Positions 6,571-41,602 of a DNA stretch of 46,493 bases are shown here, one piece after another; positions within the stretch are counted from its first letter, which is position 1; the number at the start of each line of letters is the position of its first letter. A program made the position numbers and the translations under genes. Where the stretch lies: NCBI GenBank assembly GCA_029004515.1, contig JAQVYH010000009.1, forward strand, positions 1 to 46,493. The letters are read 5' to 3'. Under the pieces are notes generated by a model that was given only the letters and a program-made list of their open reading frames with translations, ran no database searches and was not told the DNA's origin. Source of the stretch: Eubacteriales bacterium. GTDB taxonomy: Bacteria; Bacillota; Clostridia; Monoglobales; UMGS1388.

Positions 6571-8058
6571 TTAGAGACTAACGATTTTTGTAGCTATATT
6601 TTCACAAAATGCTTTATCGTGTTCCACAAATAAGATTGTTGGCTTATATTCAAGTAATAGATTTTCAATTTGCATTCGTGAAATTACATCAATAAAGTTA
6701 AGAGGTTCATCCCAAATAAGGATATGCGCTTTTTCACACAGGCTTCTTGCGATAAGAACTTTTTTCTTTTGTCCACCGCTAAAACATTCAATACTTTTAT
6801 CAAACTGTACTCTCTCAAAATCGAGTTTTCTCAAAATTCCTTTAAAAAGACTTTCATCAATATTGTGCATTCTTGCAAAGTCGGAAAGATTTCCATTGAG
6901 ATGTGATGTATCTTGTGAAACATACGATATTTTTAGGGCGTTACCTTTTCTCAAAGTACCCTTATGGGCAATATCCTCTCCACAAATAAGTTTTATAATG
7001 CTTGATTTTCCTGAACCATTTTTGCCAGAGAGTGAAATTCTATCACCTTTTTCAATTACAAAAGATATGTTTTCGCAAACAATATTTTGACCGTAATTTA
7101 TGCTGACATTTTCAAGTGCAATAAGAGGTGAAGTGTGATAGCTTAGCTGGGATAGCTTTAAACTATCAGCAGTTTCAAGGTTTTTAAGCAGCTTTGATTT
7201 TTCTTTAATAGTAGTTTCCTGGCGTTGCTCTAAACCCTTTGCACGCTTCATGGCTTTTTTCGATTTTGCTCCTTCCATCGCTCGTCTATTTAAGCTTTTT
7301 TCTACCTTTGTAGGATCAAATCCAATTTTACGAGCTTCAGCTTTTTCAGACCAATCTGCTTTTTCTTTAGCGGTCTTTTCCAAGCGTTTTACTTCCTTTT
7401 GAAGCTTTTCATTTTCAGCGAGTTCAAAATTATCTCTCCGCTCTTTGTTGACAAGCCACGATGAAAAATTACCTTGCTCAATTTCAATATTGCATTTGTT
7501 TATAGATAATATATGGTCTACACACTCATCTAAAAAGTATCGGTCATGGGATACAAGTATAAAGCCTGACTTGCCTTTGAGATATCTACTAACAATCTGA
7601 CGCCCTAAAGCATCGAGATGATTAGTAGGCTCATCTATTAGCAAAAAACTATTTTCTTTTAAGAATAATGCCGCAAGCATAACTTTAGTTTGTTCGCCGT
7701 TTGACAAAGTATTAAATGTGCGATAGAGAACATCATTTGACACTTGCAAAAGGTTTAACTCTCTTGACAATTCCCATTCTTGATAGTCAAAACAAATTGA
7801 ATTTACCACTTCAATAGTGGTTGATGTTTTATCAGTTACTTCAAATGGAAAATATTCAAAATCGACACAAGCAGAAATATTACCACCATACTGATATTTT
7901 CCAAGCAAAAGATTAAGGAATGTAGTTTTTCCTCTGCCATTTCTGCCTGTAAATCCTAATTTCCAGTTGGTATCAATTTGAAAGCTGACATCTTCAAATA
8001 TGTTGTCATAGCTTTCAGGATAACTAAATGTTAAATTACTAACGTTAATTAATGACAA
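6571..8058 (-). CDS. ABC-F ribosomal protection protein, Lsa-like (antibiotic resistance)
   Basis: 495 aa from a TTG start at 8058, chosen because it gives MSLINVSNLTFSY, the usual N-terminus of the Lsa-type family, with GGGGGAC six bases upstream. Two ABC domains without membrane segments: Walker A GRNGRGKTT (38-46), signature LSNGEQ (118-123), Walker B plus switch LLIDEPTNHLD (139-149); charged helical linker about 200-300; second Walker A GKNGSGKSS (345-353), signature FSGGQ (426-430), Walker B LIWDEPLNFID (447-457). ABC-F proteins of this group bind the ribosomal E site and displace drugs such as lincosamides, pleuromutilins and streptogramin A; the exact spectrum cannot be read from sequence. 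It has its own promoter, attenuator and terminator and is inserted between phage tail genes as cargo. The clinical name (lsa, cplR or other) is left open. Confidence 0.92.
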   Translation of the reverse strand: MSLINVSNLTFSYPESYDNIFEDVSFQIDTNWKLGFTGRNGRGKTTFLNLLLGKYQYGGNISACVDFEYFPFEVTDKTSTTIEVVNSICFDYQEWELSRELNLLQVSNDVLYRTFNTLSNGEQTKVMLAALFLKENSFLLIDEPTNHLDALGRQIVSRYLKGKSGFILVSHDRYFLDECVDHILSINKCNIEIEQGNFSSWLVNKERRDNFELAENEKLQKEVKRLEKTAKEKADWSEKAEARKIGFDPTKVEKSLNRRAMEGAKSKKAMKRAKGLEQRQETTIKEKSKLLKNLETADSLKLSQLSYHTSPLIALENVSINYGQNIVCENISFVIEKGDRISLSGKNGSGKSSIIKLICGEDIAHKGTLRKGNALKISYVSQDTSHLNGNLSDFARMHNIDESLFKGILRKLDFERVQFDKSIECFSGGQKKKVLIARSLCEKAHILIWDEPLNFIDVISRMQIENLLLEYKPTILFVEHDKAFCENIATKIVSL

Positions 8059-8082
8059 TGTTTTGTCCCCCTGTATAATAAA

Positions 8083-8116
8083 AGTGGTTGCAAGAAAGTT
8101 AATTCTTACAACCACT
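8083..8116 (-). terminator. attenuator terminator hairpin of the ABC-F leader
   Basis: Arms 8103-8116 and 8083-8096 (AGTGGTTGTAAGAA and TTCTTGCAACCACT on the minus strand) pair over 14 bp with one G-U, then TTTTATTAT follows: an intrinsic terminator just before the ABC-F start. Its 3' arm contains TTCTTGC, which can instead pair with the upstream GCAAGAA (8184-8191), giving an antiterminator. Confidence 0.8.
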
Positions 8117-8183
8117 ACAAGACAAAACAATGCTTATAAAAAAGCACAATTTCAGTATAGTATAAGTTGAAAAAATGGATAAC

Positions 8184-28677: not shown

Positions 28678-30117
28678 CTAAGTTTTGAATGGATTTATGC
28701 CTCTACGGTAGTCGTCTACAAGGGTTCGTGCTAGGTCTACTTTGTTTTGCAGAGAACGGAGAACTTTATAATCCACGGTATTTTTTGCAACAAGATAGAT
28801 ATAGTGACAGTCATTTTTTTGTGATACACGATGAATTCGTGCCTTTGCCTGCTCAAAATTACTCATAGAATAATCCATGCTGTAAAAAATCATTGTGGAT
28901 GCCGCTGTTAATGTGATACCAAGACCGGCAGCCGCAATCTGTCCTACAAACACACGGCACTCAGGGTCATTTTGAAAACGGCTTATTTCATCGGATCGGT
29001 TTTTAACCCCACCACGCACAACGGCATAGTCAATTTTCTTTTTCTCAAGTAATTGTTGTATATCGTTTAGTTCAGGCACAAATCGTGCTATTACCACAAT
29101 TTTTTTATCTTCCTCTACAGCTGAGTCGATAATATCGGATAGGGCATCAATCTTTGCTGTACTGATTGCATTTATATCGCCTTCATCATCAGTAAGGTGA
29201 CCACCTGTAAGTTGGCAAAGGCGGAGTAGCTTGGTCAGAACATTTACGGCAGAAACTTCAGCACCTGCCAATTCTGTATAGGACTCTTTTTCTAACTCAG
29301 TGTATAGTTTCATTGCCTTTGGCTCTAATTCCACTGTGCGGATTTCTTCTGTGATCTCGGGCAAATCTAAGCATTCCGCTTTTGTCACACGGAAGGCAAC
29401 TGAATGTAGACGATGCAAAAACTCTCGTGTCATGCTTTTTCTAAATCTAGGGATGTGGTTGCCGTAACCTACCATGTCAAAATATTTGTTACGGAATACA
29501 TAAAATGAGTTACCAAACACCTCATGATTTAAAAAGCGATATTGCGAAAACACATCCAATTCCTTATTGGTGATCACGGTGCCTGTTAAAAGCAGCTTGT
29601 ACTTTGTTTTGTCACCCAATTGGTGCATTGCCTTGGATTGAGCGGTGCGAGATTCCTTTAATTTATGTGCCTCATCAGCTATAACGAGGTCAGCATTAAA
29701 TGCTTGCAATTCTTTCTCCAATCGCCATGCACTTTCATAGTTGATTACAATAATTTCTAAACCATCAGTTTTTTGATGTTTTAACTGTTCTTTCTTTTGA
29801 GCACTGCTGCCTTTCAGCTCGGTAAGGGTATATGGGAACTTTGCGAATTTTTCAAATTCCTCTTGCCATACCCCTAAAATGGAGAGCGGTGCAACCACTA
29901 AAACCCGCTCTACCAAACCAAACTGATATAAAATACCCGTCAAAGCTACGGAAACAATGGTTTTCCCGCAGCCCATTTCCATAAGTAGAGCAACACCTTT
30001 ACTCCTGCTTGCGACTGTAGGCAATAACCCAAATTTCTCGCAAGCAAAATCGAAAGCCTCTTGCTGATGTTGGTATGGCTTTGCCGTAATAGGCATTGGT
30101 AAGCTATAATCTGCCAT
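28678..30117 (-). CDS. SNF2-type SF2 helicase of phage
   Basis: 479 aa. Motif I LLMEMGCGKTIVSVAL (residues about 44-59), motif II ADEAHKLK (147-154), motif III LLLTGT (175-180), and C-terminal helicase motifs RVFVGQIAAAGLGITLTAAS and QAKARIHRVSQKNDCHYIY. Short SNF2-like proteins are standard in the replication block of this prophage type, though their exact task is unclear. The start overlaps the MazF-like gene. Confidence 0.93.
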   Translation of the reverse strand: MADYSLPMPITAKPYQHQQEAFDFACEKFGLLPTVASRSKGVALLMEMGCGKTIVSVALTGILYQFGLVERVLVVAPLSILGVWQEEFEKFAKFPYTLTELKGSSAQKKEQLKHQKTDGLEIIVINYESAWRLEKELQAFNADLVIADEAHKLKESRTAQSKAMHQLGDKTKYKLLLTGTVITNKELDVFSQYRFLNHEVFGNSFYVFRNKYFDMVGYGNHIPRFRKSMTREFLHRLHSVAFRVTKAECLDLPEITEEIRTVELEPKAMKLYTELEKESYTELAGAEVSAVNVLTKLLRLCQLTGGHLTDDEGDINAISTAKIDALSDIIDSAVEEDKKIVVIARFVPELNDIQQLLEKKKIDYAVVRGGVKNRSDEISRFQNDPECRVFVGQIAAAGLGITLTAASTMIFYSMDYSMSNFEQAKARIHRVSQKNDCHYIYLVAKNTVDYKVLRSLQNKVDLARTLVDDYRRGINPFKT

Positions 30118-30485
30118 TAACCCACCTCCAAACCGATTGATATTCTTACGGCATTATCTACACGAGTGATGTCTTCAGGTCTAAGCTTTGTTACTACACT
30201 TAAAATGTCAGATTTATTAATGGTAACAATTTGTTCTGCTTGAACAACTGATACTCTCATATTGTCATAGTGCTGCAGTAGTACATGGGTTTTCAGATCC
30301 AAACGCTTTAATTGAGATGTAAGGTAGCAGACAATAACGGTGGGACTGAAACGATTTCCTACATCATTCTGGATAATAACAGCGGGGTGATTACCACTCA
30401 TAACATTTCCGCTATCACTATCATTTTTTACAAAAACTATTGTTCCTCGTGTTAATTGATCATTGATGGCATTGTTATTTATCAC
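30117..30485 (-). CDS. MazF/PemK-like phage protein, catalytic Arg replaced
   Basis: 122 aa from GTG at 30485, chosen because AAAGGAGG lies eight bases upstream. The fold matches MazF: LTRGTIVFVKND, HPAVIIQNDVGNRFSPTV, YLTSQLKRLDLKTHV, VVQAEQIVTINKSDI. Compared with the host MazF in this window (40957-41325), the catalytic Arg25 position is His33 here, while the catalytic Thr48 equivalent (Thr56) is kept. No MazE-like antitoxin lies beside it. It may have no RNase activity and could act as a regulator or as a decoy for host MazE; that is inference. Confidence 0.8.
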   Translation of the reverse strand: MINNNAINDQLTRGTIVFVKNDSDSGNVMSGNHPAVIIQNDVGNRFSPTVIVCYLTSQLKRLDLKTHVLLQHYDNMRVSVVQAEQIVTINKSDILSVVTKLRPEDITRVDNAVRISIGLEVG

Positions 30486-30684
30486 AGCAATTACCTCCTT
30501 TGGTTTCATGGATTTCCACGCTTTCTACCGACTTGCCGGGTATTAAAACAAGCACCTCTGTAAACTCGCCAAACAGCCAAGTAAGCAAGCGGCATGGTAT
30601 TCGTTTTGATGTACCTGTTAGCACCGTCTTTTGTGTGCCATTTTTGCCTGCGATATTGATGCGAACTTTGTGATTTAAATTCAT
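30475..30684 (-). CDS. small basic phage protein, function unknown
   Basis: 69 aa from ATG at 30684 (GAGGAG upstream). Basic beta-rich N-terminus MNLNHKVRINIAGKNG, then GTSKRIPCRLLTWLFGEF and a C-terminal GGNCCDK. It overlaps the MazF-like gene by 11 bases. It does not look like a ribbon-helix-helix or AbrB antitoxin. Function unknown. Confidence 0.6.
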   Translation of the reverse strand: MNLNHKVRINIAGKNGTQKTVLTGTSKRIPCRLLTWLFGEFTEVLVLIPGKSVESVEIHETKGGNCCDK

Positions 30685-31903: not shown

Positions 31904-32737
31904 ATGGACTTTGTAGAATTCGTAAGCATAACGCGACCAATAATCGGTGGAAAAAGTGGTGTTCATACCTATGTAAAAACACTCTTTGACGCAATGCTTA
32001 CTGAAAACGGAAAAGACATACTTGATGATTATGGGGATTCAACCTTCAAAGCTTATGCCAATGGTTCAACAAGCATCAGCAAAATATCCAAGGCGATGGT
32101 TCCTTATATAGACCCTGTTGAATTTTCTTCCTTTGTCTTTGATACCGAGGAATCTGTTCAAATAGCTCTATGTCAACGTTTTACTGAATATATAACAAAT
32201 ATTACTATCAATAATGTTGGTGATGAAATTGCCGAGTTATTTGCAAATATAATAAGAACTGCTGCTCAAACAAAAAGAAAAAGGCCAGCATCCAAAACGG
32301 ATACTGGCACACAGGCTATTGAAATTCCTGATGAACAGCCTTCTGTTGAGAGTCCATATTCTTCAGAGGATAAAATGTTACTTCAAGAATTTACATCAGA
32401 TTATGATGAAATAATGGTTACGATGATAGGTGAAAACTATGGTGCTTCATTAATTGATATGTCGCTACCCTGTAAAATCCAAGGCTTATATAAAACAAAG
32501 TGGAATGCAAAGGCAGATGCTTTTCTTGCCCCAAATTTGAAATCGTATGTATTTGGCTTGCTTGGAGAGTTAAATCAACTAAGCAATAGCCTTTTACTTG
32601 GTGGTAGCGAACCTTTTTTCATCAAGCAAGCGAGAACAAAGATAAGGAATTTATATGTAAAACTTCATCCCGACTCATTTGCCGGAGCATTTCCATATGA
32701 TGCTTTTATTGATGATTGGGATGATGGAGAATACTAA
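31904..32737 (+). CDS. unknown protein, first gene of putative defence operon
   Basis: 277 aa from ATG at 31904, with AAGGAGG eight bases upstream. Residues 1-120 look helical (FVEFVSITRPIIGGKSGV, YVKTLFDAMLTENGKDIL); a low-complexity linker (KRKRPASKTDTGTQAIE) follows at about 125-155; a second domain contains LLQEFTSDYDEIMVTMIGEN and FIKQARTKIRNLYVKLHP. No family recognised, no membrane segment or signal. The helicase gene begins 21 bases downstream, so they form an operon and probably a complex. Base composition is AT-richer in look than the phage genes. Confidence 0.85.
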   Translation: MDFVEFVSITRPIIGGKSGVHTYVKTLFDAMLTENGKDILDDYGDSTFKAYANGSTSISKISKAMVPYIDPVEFSSFVFDTEESVQIALCQRFTEYITNITINNVGDEIAELFANIIRTAAQTKRKRPASKTDTGTQAIEIPDEQPSVESPYSSEDKMLLQEFTSDYDEIMVTMIGENYGASLIDMSLPCKIQGLYKTKWNAKADAFLAPNLKSYVFGLLGELNQLSNSLLLGGSEPFFIKQARTKIRNLYVKLHPDSFAGAFPYDAFIDDWDDGEY

Positions 32738-32758
32738 CGAACGAAAGGGGGAATGTCA

Positions 32759-35551
32759 ATGCCAACAATCGATGATTCTATCCGAAAAATAGATAATGTA
32801 ATATGCAGGCATCTAGATGACATTGAAGATACATCTCGTGGTGCTATATCCCAAGATATTTTAGAGCAGTTAATGAAGTTCGTTAATCATGTGATGCTCA
32901 AATTTTATGCTAACGGCAGAGATATCGTCATTAGCGAAGAAAATATATCTAAGGCAGTCGAGTTTGCTCAAATAGACAGTGAACTACACACTTTATATAA
33001 ATTTCGCAATTATTTGCAAATTGTAACCACCCAATACACTTTGGATGAAGACGGCTCAGAACGATTAATGCTGAAGTATTACCAATACTTGCTAGAGATA
33101 AAGAATCTTCTTAGCCACTACTATGGTATTGAGGTATTACATAACATAGATAAATTTCCTCTGCATTTGGATGATACCTTACAGGAATACTATAAAAAGA
33201 TTTCTGAAAAAATAGAACGTCATCCTGCGGTATTACATACTGATGGCAAGGATAAATACTATATTCAAAAAATTAAACCGCTGTTTGTAAACAGAAAAAT
33301 ATATTATGAAATCACATTTACTCCTATAGATGATAGGAAAAATAAATCCAAATCTAACAGAGTAATTGCTTTTACCAAACTGCCAATCAAAAGTAACTAC
33401 GCATCGAAGTTTCATCTTATGCATGAAACAATCGAAATATTAGGAAAAACAATGCCTATCATCCTTATTGATGGCTGGGAAGTTTCCATCCGTGACTGTG
33501 AGTTTCAAAATTTTATTTCGTTAATAAAAGGTGAGAAAAAAGGAGTACCTTACCCAGAACAACGATTAATCTGTGAATTTCTTACAAAAAAGAAATTCAC
33601 TCTGACTGATTTAATGGACTTCCCGGATAAGGCATATGATAAGATTACTCTCGAATGGAAAAATAACCTTAAATCTTCGATATTTATTCCAATTTTAGAT
33701 GACTGCAGAAATCTAATACGAAACGGTCGCAATGGACAAAATGTGCTTAGATATCTTCTTTATAACATGAACAATGTCATTATTAAGAGCCAATATTCAT
33801 CTGGATACTATAGTAGATATTATGAAGAATGGATAAATGCTGGAAATAGTTATCTTTCTGGTTTGTATTTAGCAAACGGCTGTAGGCAATTTGATTCTTT
33901 ACCATTTAACAGATCTCCTATTGGACATAATCCAAAATTAGGAGCGATATTTGATTGTATTCCTTGTAAGGATAAACGCCCAGAATTATTCGCAAGATTT
34001 ATACGAAACAACACAGAAGGTAAAGGTCAGCTATTCACCGATATTGATGAATTGAACAATTTTCCTGATTACCAAACTCTTATAAAGAGGTATAACGATA
34101 GTCTTTGGGATGGACACAGACCTGCTAGTGATTTGATGTTTGAACACAATCAAGTATTTATAAATGCTTACAATCTTGACACTTGTAAGGTGATTGAGGC
34201 GTTACAAAACCTGGCTGAATCAGGCATTGAAAATTACTCCAATGATGTTGACATTTGGTTACTCTTTGATGATTACGAGATTGACTGTGATGAGAAAAAG
34301 GATATCATTAGCCATATCTTCTCAGAATCAAGGGTTGGTGTAATATATGGTTCTGCAGGTGTAGGTAAATCAACGCTGATAAACCATGTTTCCCACTATT
34401 TAAATGATACAGAAAAATTATACCTAACACAGACAAATCCTGCGAAAGAGAACTTGATGAGAAAGATTGATGCCGAAAATACAACTTTTTCAACAATTGA
34501 AAGTTTTAAGCACCAAGGTTCTTCTTTCACAAAATATAAATTATTAGTTATCGATGAATGTAGCACTGTTAGCAATAAAGATATGGTTGAGGTATTGCAA
34601 AAAGCAAATTTTGAAATGCTTTTATTGGTTGGAGACACTTATCAGATAGATGCAATTCAATTTGGCAACTGGTTCTCCGTATTAAAATCATTCTTGCCAG
34701 AAAGCTCTGTTTTCGAGCTTTCTCAGCCTCATCGAACTAAGGACGAGCGATTGCTTGAACTATGGAATAAAGTCAGACATATGGATGATACTGCAAAAGA
34801 AGTTATTGAGAGAGAAAGCTATTCATTAAAAGTAGAAGAAACACTACTATCTTCTCTTGAACCAGGTGAGGCTATCCTCTGCCTAAATTATGATGGCTTG
34901 TATGGAATAAACAACATAAACAGATTCCTGCAAGAAAGTAATCCTAACCCTGCTGTCACTTGGGATATCCAACAATACAAAGTTGGAGACCCTATCCTAT
35001 TCCTTGACTCAGATAGATTTCGTCCCATCATACACAACAACATGAAAGGCATACTTCAAGGAGTAAAAACAATAGATGCAGACACTATGGAAGAACGTAT
35101 TCAATTTGATGTTGAAATACAAAAGACGGTAGATGAGCGTGATGTTTCAGGCTTGAATCTTGAACTTCTTGAATGTTTCGAGAAAGAAGAAAAATCTTTA
35201 ATTAGATTTTATGTTCATAAACTAAAAAGTGCAGATGAGGATGGCGAAGATTCCGGCACAGCAGTTCCATTCCAAGTTGCTTATGCCGTATCAATCCATA
35301 AAGCACAAGGTTTAGAATATGACTCTGTTAAAATAGTAATAACAGATGAGGTGGAAGAATTAGTAACACACAATATTTTCTACACTGCCATCACTAGAGC
35401 AAGAGAAAAATTGAAGATTTACTGGACCCCAGAAGTTGAAGAAAAGGTAATCAACAGAATCAAGCCCCGAGATATAAGCAAGGATGTTGAACTTTTAAAA
35501 AATTATCTGACTGATAAACAACAAACTGATTCACTTGCTTTTTTGCTGTGA
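32759..35551 (+). CDS. RecD-like SF1 helicase with large unassigned N-terminal half
   Basis: 930 aa from ATG at 32759 (AAAGGGGG seven bases upstream; the ATG at 32753 is too close). Residues 1 to about 500 match nothing I know. The C-terminal part is an SF1B helicase: Walker A GSAGVGKST (about 531-539), Walker B LLVIDECSTVSN, motif III LLVGDTYQIDAIQ, motif IV region LSQPHRTKDERL, motif V SIHKAQGLEYDSVKI, motif VI FYTAITRAREKLKIYW. It would move along DNA in an ATP-driven way. Lying between an unknown protein and XRE/restriction genes, it is most likely part of an anti-phage system. The N-terminal half may sense or cut the target. Confidence 0.9.
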   Translation: MPTIDDSIRKIDNVICRHLDDIEDTSRGAISQDILEQLMKFVNHVMLKFYANGRDIVISEENISKAVEFAQIDSELHTLYKFRNYLQIVTTQYTLDEDGSERLMLKYYQYLLEIKNLLSHYYGIEVLHNIDKFPLHLDDTLQEYYKKISEKIERHPAVLHTDGKDKYYIQKIKPLFVNRKIYYEITFTPIDDRKNKSKSNRVIAFTKLPIKSNYASKFHLMHETIEILGKTMPIILIDGWEVSIRDCEFQNFISLIKGEKKGVPYPEQRLICEFLTKKKFTLTDLMDFPDKAYDKITLEWKNNLKSSIFIPILDDCRNLIRNGRNGQNVLRYLLYNMNNVIIKSQYSSGYYSRYYEEWINAGNSYLSGLYLANGCRQFDSLPFNRSPIGHNPKLGAIFDCIPCKDKRPELFARFIRNNTEGKGQLFTDIDELNNFPDYQTLIKRYNDSLWDGHRPASDLMFEHNQVFINAYNLDTCKVIEALQNLAESGIENYSNDVDIWLLFDDYEIDCDEKKDIISHIFSESRVGVIYGSAGVGKSTLINHVSHYLNDTEKLYLTQTNPAKENLMRKIDAENTTFSTIESFKHQGSSFTKYKLLVIDECSTVSNKDMVEVLQKANFEMLLLVGDTYQIDAIQFGNWFSVLKSFLPESSVFELSQPHRTKDERLLELWNKVRHMDDTAKEVIERESYSLKVEETLLSSLEPGEAILCLNYDGLYGINNINRFLQESNPNPAVTWDIQQYKVGDPILFLDSDRFRPIIHNNMKGILQGVKTIDADTMEERIQFDVEIQKTVDERDVSGLNLELLECFEKEEKSLIRFYVHKLKSADEDGEDSGTAVPFQVAYAVSIHKAQGLEYDSVKIVITDEVEELVTHNIFYTAITRAREKLKIYWTPEVEEKVINRIKPRDISKDVELLKNYLTDKQQTDSLAFLL

Positions 35552-35567
35552 AACAAGGAGGTAGAAA

Positions 35568-35771
35568 ATGCGCATCAGCTATAACAAGTTATGGAAAATG
35601 TTAATTGACAAAGAAATGAATAAAAATGACCTAAAGGAGGCTGCAGAAATCAGTGCTGCTTCCATTGCTAAACTTGGCAAAGGTGCGAATATTACCACCG
35701 ATGTTCTTCTTAAAATCTGCGAAGCAATGGATTGTAAGTTAGAAGATATCATGGAAACCATCAAAGATTAA
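35568..35771 (+). CDS. small Cro/XRE-type repressor
   Basis: 67 aa, MRISYNKLWKMLIDKEMNKND. The helix-turn-helix (LKEAAEISAASIAKLGKGAN, TTDVLLKICEAMDCKLEDIME) is the short XRE class related to YozG-like proteins. AAGGAGG precedes it; 16 bases separate it from the helicase gene. It may regulate the operon or act as a control protein delaying nuclease expression, as C proteins do in type II R-M systems. Confidence 0.88.
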   Translation: MRISYNKLWKMLIDKEMNKNDLKEAAEISAASIAKLGKGANITTDVLLKICEAMDCKLEDIMETIKD

Positions 35772-35791
35772 AGGAATCGTGGACTGCAAAT

Positions 35792-36013
35792 ATGTATCTC
35801 ATATTCGTATTAAACCGAATGGACATATTACCTACAAACGACGCTGCATTTTTGCAGGCTTATGAATGGCTATACAAGACAACGGACCGTTCTGACGCAT
35901 CTATAATAAATAGATGTAAAAAATGGAAACCTTACTCTTCCATTGCAAGTAGATACCTATATCGAGCATTGGATGATGGCTTCACAAAAGAAGATTTTCA
36001 TTTATTCAAATAA
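35792..36013 (+). pseudogene. C-terminal fragment of AlkA-like DNA glycosylase
   Basis: 73 aa frame, MYLIFVLNRMDILPTNDAAF. The matching part starts a few codons before this ATG: in frame upstream the sequence reads ESWTAN, giving the WTA-x-M...LPTND pattern of the HhH-GPD glycosylase C-terminus, with WKPYSSIASRYLYRAL following as in AlkA-type proteins. About 130 or more N-terminal residues, including most of the helix-hairpin-helix, are missing; the XRE gene ends right at the break. The catalytic Asp equivalent (in LPTND) remains. It is either a scar of gene fusion or a kept small protein. No clear ribosome binding site precedes the ATG. Confidence 0.72.
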
Positions 36014-36031
36014 CAAGGAGGATTTATTATT

Positions 36032-36604
36032 ATGAACAATAACAATGTACAAAATTTTAAAGATGAAGCTGAACAACTAATGAAAAACTATTCAGACAGT
36101 TTTTCCGCAAAGCAATACAATGACGAAAACAATGACTATGATATTCTTATGGAATTATTTAATATTTCACCAATCACTAAAAGAGAAAATAGACAGTATT
36201 GGGGAAGGGAACTCGGTAAATTCTGGGAAAGATTCGTTGTTGATTTATTCAAGAATACCCGACCTGATTTATTTAAGCCTGCAGAAAAATATGGTCTAGA
36301 TGAACCATATGACTTAATTGTTGGTAATTATGCAATTGATACAAAATATCGAGTAGGTTCAGGTGATTCTGGAACATTAAAAAAATTTAAGCAATATGGT
36401 GAAATGATAAAGGAACTTGGCTATACACCAGTTTTTTTAATGGTACGAGAAGATAACCTCCCTGCTGCAATGACTGCAATTAAAAACGGAGGCTGGATAG
36501 CATATACAGGAAATGACGCATTTTCATTTATTAAAGAATACACCGGCATAGACATAGTAAAGTTATTTAAGGATTATGGAAATACATATCATATTAATCG
36601 ATAA
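36032..36604 (+). CDS. PD-(D/E)XK restriction endonuclease
   Basis: 190 aa. Nuclease core: E66 in GRELGKFWERFVVDLF, D94 in LDEPYDLIVGNY, and D103-T-K105 in AIDTKYRVGSGDSG. The size and placement facing a class beta methyltransferase indicate a type II restriction enzyme. The pattern recalls the ApaLI-type Pfam family, but I cannot confirm that or the target site. AAGGAGG is followed by a 10-base gap to ATG. It is the last gene of the helicase operon, which is unusual for a plain R-M pair. Confidence 0.8.
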   Translation: MNNNNVQNFKDEAEQLMKNYSDSFSAKQYNDENNDYDILMELFNISPITKRENRQYWGRELGKFWERFVVDLFKNTRPDLFKPAEKYGLDEPYDLIVGNYAIDTKYRVGSGDSGTLKKFKQYGEMIKELGYTPVFLMVREDNLPAAMTAIKNGGWIAYTGNDAFSFIKEYTGIDIVKLFKDYGNTYHINR

Positions 36605-36617
36605 ACTCTAAGAACTT

Positions 36618-36671
36618 AAAACAGAGAAATAAGCTATTGTCGCTCTCGGCAAAGACTTATTTCTCTGTTTT
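36618..36671. terminator. bidirectional terminator between endonuclease and methyltransferase
   Basis: Perfect 16-bp arms (36618-36633 and 36656-36671) with A-rich and T-rich outer ends on both strands, placed between convergent genes. It ends both transcripts. Confidence 0.9.
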
Positions 36672-36672
36672 T

Positions 36673-37596
36673 CTACTTATTTGATGACGCTTTTTCAATT
36701 CTATCATTAGCAATTGATACATATTCTGGATTACGTTCTATTCCGATCCAACTAATTCCCAAATTAATAGCAGCAACAGCCGTTGTTCCTGAGCCTAAAA
36801 ATGGGTCAATTACCACATTACCTTCAATTGGTGGGATAACCATTTCAACTAATTTTTGTATTAACTCTAATGGTTTTATAGTAATATGCGTATTACTCTC
36901 TGTTTTTGGATCTCTTTTAATGTCTTCAATAATATTGGATTGAAAGCCATCTATGTTTGCCCCTTTAGTTTTTAGCAACCCCACATCATATTTTTGTAGT
37001 GTATTCAAATAGTTATTAACGAGAGGTTTTTGAACGACAGTTATTGCCTCCCATTCACTTCTCAATGCGCTGTGCCATCCCTTCCACAGTTCAGAATTTT
37101 CATCACCCATTTTTTCAAGTTTTTTTTCCGCATTAAGACCTTTTGGTATACCGCTTTGCCTTCTCCATACAATAGTGTCTCTTGCATAAAATCCAACATC
37201 TTCAAGAGCAACTTGTATATGTGCCGATGTTCTTGTGCTATTGAATACAAGAACATATGAACCGGGTTTTAGTACTCTAAATAGTTCTGCACCCCACACT
37301 TTTATCCAATCTCTATATTCTAAAATATTATCTCGATTCTTTTTATACCATCTTTCATTTCTCACCCCACCAGCAAGTCCACTACCATATGGGATGTTTT
37401 TCACAAGTGTAGATGACTCTTTTTCCTGACTTCTTTTAATACGTCTTTCAATTTCTTCGTCATCCCAATTTCTTCCAATAAATTCATAATTATATGGTGG
37501 ATCAGTAATACAACCCGCAATAGAATTATCGTCAATTTCCTTCAATACTTCCAGTGAATCACCACATATTACTCTATTAATATATTTATCATTCAT
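36673..37596 (-). CDS. class beta DNA methyltransferase of type II R-M system
   Basis: 307 aa. Motif IV TDPPYNYEFIGR at about 31-42 comes before motif I VIDPFLGSGTTAVAA near 263-277, the class beta order; PLELIQKLVEMVIPP (motif X) lies just before motif I. It methylates N4-cytosine or N6-adenine, protecting host DNA from the convergent endonuclease. It is transcribed with an HTH protein from a strong promoter, so modification can start independently of the nuclease operon. Target unknown. Confidence 0.9.
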   Translation of the reverse strand: MNDKYINRVICGDSLEVLKEIDDNSIAGCITDPPYNYEFIGRNWDDEEIERRIKRSQEKESSTLVKNIPYGSGLAGGVRNERWYKKNRDNILEYRDWIKVWGAELFRVLKPGSYVLVFNSTRTSAHIQVALEDVGFYARDTIVWRRQSGIPKGLNAEKKLEKMGDENSELWKGWHSALRSEWEAITVVQKPLVNNYLNTLQKYDVGLLKTKGANIDGFQSNIIEDIKRDPKTESNTHITIKPLELIQKLVEMVIPPIEGNVVIDPFLGSGTTAVAAINLGISWIGIERNPEYVSIANDRIEKASSNK

Positions 37597-37640
37597 ACAT
37601 ATTATCTCCTAATCTATAATAATTCGCTAACAAAAATCCA

Positions 37641-37835
37641 TTATTCCATCGCACTTTTGCCACTTTCAACCCAAGCATCAAGTTCTGATTTCTTAAATTT
37701 CCACTGTTTTCCTATCTTATGGGCAGGTATGCCGACATCCTTTTTTATCCAATTTCGTATGCTGTCTTTATTGACATCAAGGTATTCTGCCGCAGCATCT
37801 ATTCCAATCCATTTGTCGTCATTATTTTCGTGCAT
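37641..37835 (-). CDS. excisionase-family HTH DNA-binding protein
   Basis: 64 aa from ATG at 37835 (AAGGAGG eight bases upstream; the frame is open seven codons further). WIGIDAAAEYLDVNKDSIRNW and KIGKQWKFKKSELDAWVES form the winged-helix of excisionase/MerR-type small proteins. It is cotranscribed with the methyltransferase. It could control R-M expression or be an excisionase for the island; the operon with the methyltransferase favours control. Confidence 0.8.
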   Translation of the reverse strand: MHENNDDKWIGIDAAAEYLDVNKDSIRNWIKKDVGIPAHKIGKQWKFKKSELDAWVESGKSAME

Positions 37836-37901: not shown

Positions 37902-38312
37902 TGAATATATATGATTTGATATGATTTTATATTAATATACACATTAATATCTGACACAAAAAATCCCGAGAATCAGAGTCGCCCCCAACTCTTGGAATTC
38001 CTATTTCCTATTTCCTATATCAATCCCATCAACACAACCTACCTGTTTTTATCCTGTCAACTCAACCCTAAGGTATTTCTATCGTGGATATGTTTGGTTC
38101 TGATTTATTCAATAAAAAATCCGAGAGCCAGAGTTTCTACTCCTACCCTCGGAAATCCCTTTATTTCAAGGCTCTTTAAGCCTTTACCTATCTTTTCTTG
38201 TTATCAATACAACACTCTCCACATGTATCAACTAAGGAAACATATCAATACTAAATTTTCTTAGATATAATATTATATAAAATAATAATTTTCAATAAAC
38301 AAATAATATTAC
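37902..38312. other. AT-rich noncoding stretch with two similar leftward terminator hairpins
   Basis: No gene seen. Two hairpins of the same design, at 37959-37995 and 38112-38152, each show ccgag, an inner gagt/actc stem and a closing cttgg or ctcgg; on the minus strand both are followed by GATTTTTT or ATTTTTT. They look like terminators left after loss of leftward genes. Confidence 0.6.
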
Positions 38313-38532
38313 ACATTTTAACAATACCCTAAACCTTTTAATTATTCCCCTAATCGTTAAAAAGTAGGTGCATAATTTAATTTTAAGGGTGCAAGAGTAG
38401 TCGGCAACTACAGTGCTGAACCACAGCAGAACACCCCATAAACGACAAAAAACCTTGAAACCACGCAGTTTCAAGGTTTTTTTAGATAGAAAAACAGCAA
38501 GCCAATGTATCATTAGCTTGCTGTAATTATGG
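38313..38532. repeat. 220-base direct repeat, copy 1
   Basis: Aligns without gaps to 39715-39934 (offset 1402) with about 16 differences, roughly 93% identity by eye. It contains a dyad region, a multi-stem structured part, a plus-strand terminator (38451-38478) and a minus-strand terminator (38494-38524). Copy 1 has no tRNA gene attached, unlike copy 2. It ends at the bases (tgg) that in copy 2 are the CCA end of tRNA-Ser. Confidence 0.92.
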
Positions 38533-38681: not shown

Positions 38682-39656
38682 ATGACTAATAACACTAAAG
38701 TAACAGTAATACCACCAACTAACAGATACAGCAATAAAGTTGGCATTTATTGTCGTGTCAGCTCCAAAAGTGAGGAGCAATTAAACAGCCTTGTAAACCA
38801 AGTGTCTTTTTTGACGCAAATAGTGTCTACTAAATTAGGCTGGCATTTGGTAGATATATATTTAGATATTCGTTCTGGTTCTGATGCTAAAAGCAGAATT
38901 GAATTTCAGCGCCTACTAAATGATTGCCGTAGCGGTAAGGTGGATTTAGTATTTACAAAGAGTATTAGTAGGTTTGGTCGCAACACCTCTGAAATATTAT
39001 CGGCCATCAATAGCCTTCGTGAATGCCAAGTAGAAGTGGTATTTGACCAAGAGGAGGTTAGCACTAATGACCCATCATCCAGTCTTTACCTATCTATAAT
39101 GGAAGGTGTAGCACAGGCTGAAAATGAAAATCGCAGTAAAAATGTCCGCTGGGGCCTTATGAAAAAAGCTGAGGAAGGCACCGCCAAAATGTTTAATAGA
39201 AAGTGCTATGGCTATGTATTAGATGAAAATGGAGAATTAAAGATTGACCGTGAACGAGCAGACATAGTTATAAAGATATTTGAAATGTACTTACAGGGTA
39301 AAAGCATCGTTGGTATTATAAGTGCATTAGAAAATCAACAGATACCTTCTCCCAGTGGTAAGGTAAAATGGAGTAAGCGTTCCATAGAACTTATGCTAAG
39401 AAATGAAAAATACTCTGGCGATGTGATAATATTTAAAACATACAACTCGGATGGTCTTGTAAAAAGGCGAGTTTCAAACAAGGATGGGGCAAGGGATAAG
39501 TATTTATCTGTTTCAAATCATCCGGCAATTATATCAAAAGAGACCTTTGAGGCTGTCCAATCTGAGATTGAACGCAGATGTAATGTTGTTAAAAGTGATG
39601 ATGCTACAAAGCGTAAGTCTACCAAGTACAGTTCTAAGGCAAAAAATATTACATAA
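38682..39656 (+). pseudogene. serine recombinase lacking its C-terminal part
   Basis: 324 aa, AAAGGAGCGG before ATG. Resolvase domain: GIYCRVSSKSEEQ with the nucleophile serine, DIRSGSDAKSRIEFQRLL, LVFTKSISRFGRN; then the recombinase domain (NRKCYGYVLDENGELKI, SIVGIISALENQQIPSPSGK, RNEKYSGDVIIFK). Intact relatives continue after KRKSTKYSSK into a zinc-ribbon and coiled coil of some 150-200 residues; here it changes to AKNIT and stops. The DNA-binding part is therefore missing and integration activity is doubtful, although the catalytic domain is intact. Repeats flank it on both sides. Confidence 0.85.
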
Positions 39657-39788
39657 TAGCCTATTTTTATATTGTATTTTGCAATACTATCTTGACTAGG
39701 TTGTTGTGATTTATACATTTTAACGATACCCTAAACCTTTTAATTATTCCCCTAATCGTTAAAAAGTAGGTGCATAATTTAATTTTGA

Positions 39789-39838
39789 GGGTGCAAGAGT
39801 AGTCGGCGACTACAGTGTTGCGCTACAGCCGAACACCC
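39789..39838 (+). ncRNA. possible structured RNA within the repeat
   Basis: GGGTG (39789-39793) pairs with CACCC (39834-39838), enclosing GTAGTC/GACTAC (39799-39813) and a second small hairpin; the copy 1 counterpart (38387-38436) keeps most pairs, with a C-G to U-G change in one stem. A plus-strand terminator follows 15 bases later. Could be a small RNA or just a DNA fold; no promoter identified. Confidence 0.3.
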
Positions 39839-39852
39839 CACAAACAACGAAA

Positions 39853-39885
39853 AGCCTTGAAACCACGCAGTTTCAAGGCTTTTTT
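39853..39885 (+). terminator. plus-strand terminator downstream of the recombinase
   Basis: 11-bp arms 39853-39863 and 39870-39880 with loop cacgca and a T-run. It ends transcription from the recombinase side; copy 1 has the same hairpin at 38451-38478. Confidence 0.85.
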
Positions 39886-39890
39886 GCATA

Positions 39891-39926
39891 GAAAAACAGC
39901 AAGCCAATGTATAATTAGCTTGCTGT
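39891..39926 (-). terminator. terminator of the tRNA-Ser transcript
   Basis: Minus-strand ACAGCAAGC/GCTTGCTGT (arms 39918-39926 and 39896-39904) followed by TTTTTC, six bases after the tRNA-Ser(GCT) CCA end. Confidence 0.85.
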
Positions 39927-39931
39927 AATTA

Positions 39932-40023
39932 TGGCGGAGTAGGAGAGATTCGAACTCTCGCGCCGGTTACCCGACCTATACCCTTAGCAGGGGCACCTCT
40001 TGAGCCAACTTGAGTACTACTCC
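39932..40023 (-). tRNA. tRNA-Ser (anticodon GCT)
   Basis: Acceptor GGAGTAG/CTACTCC, discriminator G, encoded CCA (39932-39934), long variable arm typical of serine tRNA, T loop GTTCGAATC, anticodon GCT (39986-39988). It reads AGC/AGU codons. It shares a promoter with the tRNA-Ser(TGA) upstream. Confidence 0.95.
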
Positions 40024-40956: not shown

Positions 40957-41325
40957 TCAATTATATTTATCATTTTCTCTATGTGCTAGTCCAAAACTAA
41001 TTGCAAGAGCATTATCTACCTGCTCCATATGATTATCGTCAAGTCTCCCTATTTTATCTCTCAATCTCTCTTTATCAATTGTACGGATTTGTTCCATAAG
41101 AATTACAGAATCTTTGGTTAAACCGCCGCTCTGTGCATCAATCTCAATATGAGTGGGCAAATTTGCCTTGTTTATTTGAGAAGTAATTGCTGCTGCAATT
41201 ACTGTTGGACTATATTTATTTCCTATATCGTTTTGAACAATCAAAACAGGTCTTACTCCTCCCTGCTCACTTCCGATAACAGGGCTTAAATCTGCGTAGA
41301 AAATATCTCCTCTTTTTACAATCAC
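40957..41325 (-). CDS. mazF: MazF endoribonuclease toxin
   Basis: 122 aa from GTG at 41325 (GGAG upstream, one base after the mazE stop). The sequence [55 protein letters not shown] and [15 protein letters not shown] matches Bacillus subtilis MazF (EndoA) closely. Catalytic Arg25 and Thr48 are present. It cuts mRNA at short motifs when not held by MazE. Host copy; compare the phage MazF-like protein at 30117-30485. Confidence 0.95.
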
Positions 41326-41326
41326 G

Positions 41327-41602
41327 CTATTCACACTCCGATAGTTTTTCCTCGTATGAGAGATATTGACGATTGTCTGCTTCAAGGGCAAATTCTGCTT
41401 CTTCCAGGTTTATCTTGCCCATAAGCTGATAACCTTTCTTCATTTGCTCCTCAAGTTTTTCATAGTCACGCTTCTCCAAATACAAACGCAGTGCTTTTCT
41501 GATAAGTCCGCTACGACTAATACCATCTTCTTTGGCATACTCGTCTGCTGCGTCTATAAGCTTATCAGATAGGTGCAAAAGCACCTTTTTTGGCTCTGCC
41601 AC
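41327..41602 (-). CDS. mazE: MazE-type ribbon-helix-helix antitoxin
   Basis: 91 aa from GTG at 41602 (AAGGGGG eight bases upstream; a TTG three codons earlier is too close). The N-terminal [38 protein letters not shown] is a ribbon-helix-helix DNA-binding fold; the acidic C-terminus ([20 protein letters not shown]) is the MazF-neutralising tail seen in EndoAI. It represses its own operon and blocks the toxin. Confidence 0.92.

Follow-up and report, generated by a model that had tools for sequence, protein, structure and literature searches.

A candidate p277-helicase defence module beside an exchangeable, probable type II restriction-modification cassette in a Clostridia prophage

The window analysed here (46,493 nucleotides; positions 1 to 46,493 of contig JAQVYH010000009.1, assembly GCA_029004515.1, Eubacteriales bacterium) contains a defence cassette at 31904-37835 in which a gene for a 277-residue protein (p277) and a RecD2-like helicase gene precede restriction-modification (R-M) genes. 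Comparison with related loci indicated that the cassette is not one five-gene system; it evidently represents a pair of modules that occupy a defence slot of a prophage. Module 1 (31904-35551) consists of p277 and the helicase and is, on balance, a two-gene candidate anti-phage system. Module 2 consists of an XRE gene, what is left of a glycosylase gene, a putative restriction endonuclease gene and a converging methyltransferase gene, and we lean towards regarding it as a freely exchanged type II R-M cassette. The best explanation of the whole, which we favour modestly, is a prophage defence slot holding two independent modules, the p277-helicase candidate anti-phage module and an XRE-regulated type II R-M module. 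The locus is real, conserved and mobile.

Module 1 recurs in viral contigs (L004-L011, L101, L109 and L111-L113; L numbers designate the loci compared), in Erysipelothrix phage phi1605, in Terrisporobacter phage TPDSL_ph1 and in bacterial genomes, and a dedicated p277 lies upstream of the helicase in relatives down to ~57% helicase identity. Its R-M neighbours are C5 methyltransferases (L006, L011), various REase_II families (L010, L013, L109, L123), a type IIG enzyme (L111), an annotated type IIS system (phi1605, L012) and type I systems (L025, L026). In viral contigs L152 and L153, as on plasmids of Shewanella and Campylobacter, homologues of the restriction endonuclease (50-57% identity) and methyltransferase (59-68%) form a convergent pair with neither p277 nor helicase; in L152 a glycosylase homologue accompanies the pair. 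Because the endonuclease-methyltransferase pair occurs without the helicase and module 1 stands beside many R-M types, the two modules are evidently separable and neither appears to need the other. The first-pass annotation of this DNA had counted the XRE gene, the glycosylase fragment and the nuclease into one system with the helicase, which these findings do not support; its second suggestion, two defence systems joined, is supported by the recurrence of each module without the other.

An HTH_17 gene (71-73% identical in L010 and L011) marks one conserved edge and the XRE gene (58-97% identical) the other, and the R-M genes that they enclose vary; the HTH_17 homologues in L010 and L011 stand beside different methyltransferases. 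In other loci where the XRE gene follows the helicase, its identity is 76-97%; behind Lamassu-like cassettes it is 58-79%. The XRE gene follows such cassettes in L124, L127, L129 and L130, and adjoining R-M genes were identified in L124 and L129. Because of this arrangement, the slot evidently exchanges both its front and its back module. The XRE gene is probably the control gene of the R-M cassette.

All seven genes (7/7) lay where the first-pass annotation had placed them. The features of the cassette are as follows.

31904..32737, + strand: p277 (277 aa); match to LmuA model PDLC03857, alignments and AlphaFold2 model; always directly upstream of a PDC-S53-type helicase
32759..35551, + strand: SF1B RecD2/Dda-like helicase (930 aa), PDC-S53; PADLOC, PHROG, AlphaFold2 with Foldseek, and motifs
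35568..35771, + strand: XRE regulator (67 aa); Pfam HTH_26
35792..36013, + strand: remnant of an HhH-GPD DNA glycosylase, C-terminal 73 aa; identity to intact 215-aa proteins
36032..36604, + strand: putative type II restriction endonuclease, PD-(D/E)XK-like (190 aa); homologues convergent with methyltransferase homologues, ApaLI-like at E=0.019
36618..36671, no strand: bidirectional terminator; perfect 16-bp inverted repeat, 36618-36633 / 36656-36671
36673..37596, - strand: N6/N4 DNA methyltransferase (307 aa); PF01555 E=1.7e-36, MTase_II E=4e-46 (PADLOC), co-occurrence with the endonuclease
37641..37835, - strand: HTH_17 excisionase-like small protein (64 aa); Pfam HTH_17, homologues in L010 and L011

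The short spacing of the five rightward genes was confirmed (gaps of 21, 16, 20 and 18 nt), and an alternative start of the helicase is possible at the upstream ATG 32753. The perfect bidirectional terminator, on which the methyltransferase converges as first described, had a folding z of -6.6; none of 200 shuffles was equally stable.

The helicase matched PADLOC model PDLC05035 (PDC-S53) over its whole length (1213 bits; residues 1-920 on model positions 1-897 of 900). Its Pfam matches (AAA_30, Viral_helicase1 and UvrD_C_2) upheld the initial description of a RecD-like helicase, as HTH_26 did for the XRE gene, and it belongs to PHROG 325 (Dda-like helicase; 566 bits). The AlphaFold2 model had a predicted local distance difference test score of 85.8 and a predicted template modelling score of 0.82. 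Foldseek matches fell on the core (~510-910), which resembles RecD2, RecD, Pif1 and Dda (best match RecD2, E=2.5e-17). The N-terminal ~490 residues were modelled as helical, then a beta domain, then helical, and a sequence search of PDB chains gave no match to them. The helicase motifs were invariant in 56 relatives. Relatives are spread over many bacterial phyla, mostly without p277, and such solo helicases occur on plasmids and chromosomes, often beside type I R-M. PDC-S53 is patchy, with ~8 of 293 genomes of the class counted by matches beginning in the N-terminal region, which we took as true PDC-S53; the remaining matches of that search were ordinary RecD2. PDCs are products of a 'guilt-by-embedding' screen, and most still await experimental validation (PMC12988326). 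PDC-S53 is a catalogued defence candidate, a single-gene entry in PADLOC, and our literature search on it found no paper. A second PDC-S53 helicase, 46% identical, was observed in the same genome (G000:C66:8246-13294, L018) between proteins matching PDC-S06 and PDC-S41; this locus contains three candidate defence genes in a row.

According to the AlphaFold2 model and alignments, p277 consists of an N-terminal LmuA-type domain (1-~125), a disordered linker and a helical C-terminal domain (~148-277). Residues 1-145 matched the PADLOC LmuA model PDLC03857 with E=6e-14, covering the first 154 of 327 model positions, and p277 relatives matched it more strongly, up to 8.6e-27. Among 393 genomes searched, seven further genomes had the p277-type N-terminal domain without the p277 C-terminal domain. 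Two of the proteins with this domain are LmuA over the full length (L125, E=9e-90; L129, E=7e-120), and LmuB was matched by the ATPases of L125 (E=3e-198) and L128 (E=1e-187). Other proteins with this domain have a Cys-rich HNH-like middle region, match PDC-M68A and are the first protein of the three-gene Lamassu-like cassettes L124, L126 and L127. The domain also weakly matched HamA1 model PDLC00151 over model residues ~46-145 (L109, E=3e-4; L124, E=1e-8). An XRE-like helix-turn-helix was suggestive by eye in the N-terminal domain; profile comparison gave it 0.3%. p277 was absent from the other 50 genomes of the same order, and comparison of its structure with viral models gave two significant matches, both to uncharacterised siphovirus proteins.

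The two ends of p277 behave differently across loci. Identities to the window for the N-terminal domain, C-terminal domain and helicase were 40, 74 and 87% in L005; 30, 71 and 88% in L007; 34, 72 and 88% in L010; and 27, 72 and 76% in L111. In L111 the N-terminal domain is replaced by an unrelated ~220-aa region, with the C-terminal domain kept. The C-terminal domain was seen only directly upstream of a PDC-S53-type helicase; the sole exception is L110 (1058-2027), where a natural deletion fuses p277 to the helicase's last residues and the XRE gene is kept. Between loci, the N-terminal domain is evidently exchanged or divergent, and the C-terminal domain tracks the helicase. These identities are most simply explained if the C-terminal domain acts together with the helicase and the N-terminal domain experiences pressure to diversify or be exchanged. 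Swapped p277 C-termini were ruled out: in the alignment the C-terminal domain is conserved, and the variation lies in the N-terminal domain and in a linker or insert. The C-terminal domain is new, and profile comparison with the LmuA C-terminal domain gave a probability of 1.9%; the dedicated p277 partner and the front-domain exchange with Lamassu are the new elements of the locus. The C-terminal domain is present twice in the p277 variants of L008 (4603-5982) and L109 (5143-6537), the second copy being divergent (hhalign 84%, E=7e-6). A search for other architectures with the duplicated L008 insert as query matched only the insert itself.

In module 2, the 73-aa open reading frame was 79 and 78% identical to residues ~143-215 of intact 215-aa proteins in L013 and L007, and matched HhH-GPD with E=1.8e-12. 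Because of these intact homologues, it is evidently what remained after a deletion immediately behind the stop codon of the XRE gene, namely the C-terminal third of a glycosylase, as had been supposed. HhH-GPD glycosylases in R-M operons are intact in L013 (15025-15672), L007 (9465-10112) and L152 (4618-5241) and truncated in the window; they may act with the methyltransferase in repair or in base-excision restriction. The sole family match of the 190-aa protein was the weak ApaLI match (Pfam), and its sequence gave nothing significant against PDB. Its homologues (50-57%) adjoin, convergently, homologues of the same methyltransferase in L152, L153, L156 and L157, and one of them is annotated as a restriction endonuclease. 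The methyltransferase was confirmed by Pfam N6_N4_Mtase. In Shewanella NZ_CP022090 and Campylobacter coli NZ_CP082875, the R-M genes have the same convergent order and an HTH gene, with endonucleases 51-57% and methyltransferases 60-61% identical; the window differs in that a truncated glycosylase and the p277-helicase module precede.

Several findings weigh against two independent modules with p277 and the helicase as a defence pair. The near-constant R-M neighbour of module 1 could imply more functional coupling than independence allows. The module is not always intact: the helicase frame is broken in L011 and L101, and the helicase is lost in L110. No catalytic domain was found in p277, which gave no significant match in Pfam, NCBIfam or PDB. 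PDC-S53 relatives mostly lack p277, such that the helicase may work alone or with other partners. In the literature accessible to us, we found no activity for p277 or PDC-S53.

The pairing of p277 with the helicase, the separation of the two modules and the modular build of p277 are evident from sequence comparison; by analogy with HamAB, we infer the following mechanism. The SF1B helicase would load on aberrant DNA, i.e., ends, gaps or forks from phage replication or left by restriction. ATP-driven translocation would then alter the contact of the helicase with the conserved p277 C-terminal domain, and p277 would be the effector, or an adaptor arming an effector. The fast-changing N-terminal domain, common with LmuA, may set recognition or restraint. 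Such logic would be of the HamA-HamB type (effector plus sensor helicase) with unrelated catalytic parts. In HamAB, damaged DNA is sensed by HamB and the HamA nuclease is released (PMC12278908); the putative effector of Lamassu is LmuA, which forms a complex with the SMC-like LmuB (PMC10586767). Tentatively, and with confidence somewhat below even, we suggest that p277 and the helicase form a new class of two-gene immune system in which a RecD2-like sensor helicase drives the response via a new helical domain, and in which the recognition module can be interchanged with that of Lamassu and of some proteins of the Hachiman type, such that different defence motors would share one plug-in adaptor domain.

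Module 1 might also act as a guard or second line for R-M, with the helicase loading on restriction ends or sensing failed or blocked restriction, and p277 shutting the cell down. PrrC shuts the cell down in this manner for type I R-M. R-M genes were found near module 1 in ~16 of 18 loci with enough downstream sequence, despite their differing types. The wider helicase family is strongly enriched beside type I R-M, often lying on the same strand within 1.5 kb of hsdR/M/S. Of 74 loci without p277, 16 had HsdR within 7 kb and 27 had an R-M gene of some kind; the HSDR_N density of ~0.3 per Mb in the class predicts well below 1% per such interval, a rough comparison, because the 74 loci span many phyla and the density is from one class. 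The HsdR count also favours a defence setting for the helicase, as in the main explanation. Against a guard function, R-M is very common defence cargo, which makes co-location alone weak; L022 has the module with no R-M; and no common feature ties the different R-M types to the helicase. We consider a guard function doubtful.

A HEPN-type RNase in the p277 C-terminal domain, which would make the module an abortive-infection RNase armed by the helicase, is unlikely. The segment R248-[N/D]-x-Y-V-K-L-H255 is invariant in the domain, and the only invariant Arg and the only invariant His form R-[N/D]-x5-H (Rx6H) in 18 of 18 sequences, consistent with the Rx4-6H motif of HEPN RNases. In the AlphaFold2 model it lies at a helix end in an all-helical bundle, and in the second copies of L008 and L109 the motif is degenerate, with R and H lost. 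Nevertheless, tests of fold and profile were negative: Foldseek against PDB gave no significant match, profile comparison with HepT-like HEPN gave 0.3% probability, and domain fragments gave no Pfam HEPN match. Quite unlikely is prophage housekeeping, in which the helicase and its partner would serve phage replication or recombination, as the Dda-like label of PHROG 325 might suggest; the pair is transcribed away from the early replication operon, between that operon and the integrase end, an SNF2 helicase, a primase and a polymerase are already encoded by the prophage itself, and the solo relatives described above also count against this reading. Helicase-assisted restriction as an obligatory unit, the other suggestion of the first-pass annotation, in which p277 and the helicase would be restriction enzyme subunits as in type I/III or DISARM, was rejected as highly improbable in spite of the tight operon spacing, because the modules are separable, the endonuclease-methyltransferase pair being complete elsewhere and the helicase being partnered with chemically different R-M systems.

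The window represents a siphovirus-like prophage whose minus strand encodes tail, capsid, portal and terminase proteins, a primase, a DNA polymerase and an SNF2 helicase (names other than SNF2 helicase were read from translations), ending near a serine recombinase gene and two tRNA-Ser genes. The defence cassette, transcribed in the opposite direction, separates the early region from the integrase end, a position typical of lysogenic cargo and similar to prophage defence hotspots (PMC9122126). The serine recombinase gene (38682-39656) is flanked by 224-nt direct repeats with strong hairpins (38309-38532 and 39711-39934; 92% identical), and the right copy extends as far as tRNA-Ser(gct) 39932-40023. 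An Lsa-family ABC-F ribosomal-protection protein is encoded at 6571-8130 (-), between tail tape-measure and tail assembly genes; its NF000167 score was just below the cut-off (726 vs. 750 bits) and it was above the general ribo_prot_ABC_F cut-off, making it possible antibiotic-resistance cargo. Two MazF-like proteins are encoded at 30117-30509 (-) in the prophage early region and at 40957-41391 (-) in the host flank next to alr.

The p277-helicase pair fits no named, experimentally characterised system, in keeping with the initial description; however, the helicase is already a PADLOC candidate, which was overlooked, as was the front part that p277 has in common with LmuA. Checked against defence databases and structures, p277 belonged to no family catalogued over its whole length. 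The PDC-S53 entry comprises one gene, to which the window and its relatives add a dedicated upstream p277. Compared with RecD2, T4 Dda and Pif1, the helicase has the same core fold and an extra N-terminal region conserved across the PDC-S53 family. A prophage hotspot system pairs a helicase with DUF2290 (PMC9122126); p277 had no DUF2290 match in Pfam. Hachiman has the same two-gene order, a small partner followed by a sensor helicase; however, p277 did not match the HamA DUF1837 nuclease domain in Pfam or PADLOC, and the SF1B RecD2-like helicase matched RecD-like families and not HamB (PADLOC, Foldseek). Lamassu (LmuA-LmuB-LmuC; ABC-3C) has in common with p277 the N-terminal domain of PDLC03857-type LmuA, and in other Clostridia the same XRE gene lies behind Lamassu-like cassettes that contain this domain. 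p277 lacks the LmuA C-terminal domain, and none of the window proteins tested with PADLOC matched the SMC-like ATPase LmuB; the motor is LmuB in Lamassu and an SF1B helicase in the p277 module. The locus illustrates how a prophage rebuilds a defence slot, with the R-M cassette changed between conserved XRE and HTH flanks. For PDC-S53, a broadly distributed and unexplained candidate, a partner with a Lamassu-traded front domain provides a testable architecture and a concrete new gene pair for tests of anti-virus activity. If this reading is true, immune motors of the SMC and helicase types would take their adaptor domains from one shared pool.

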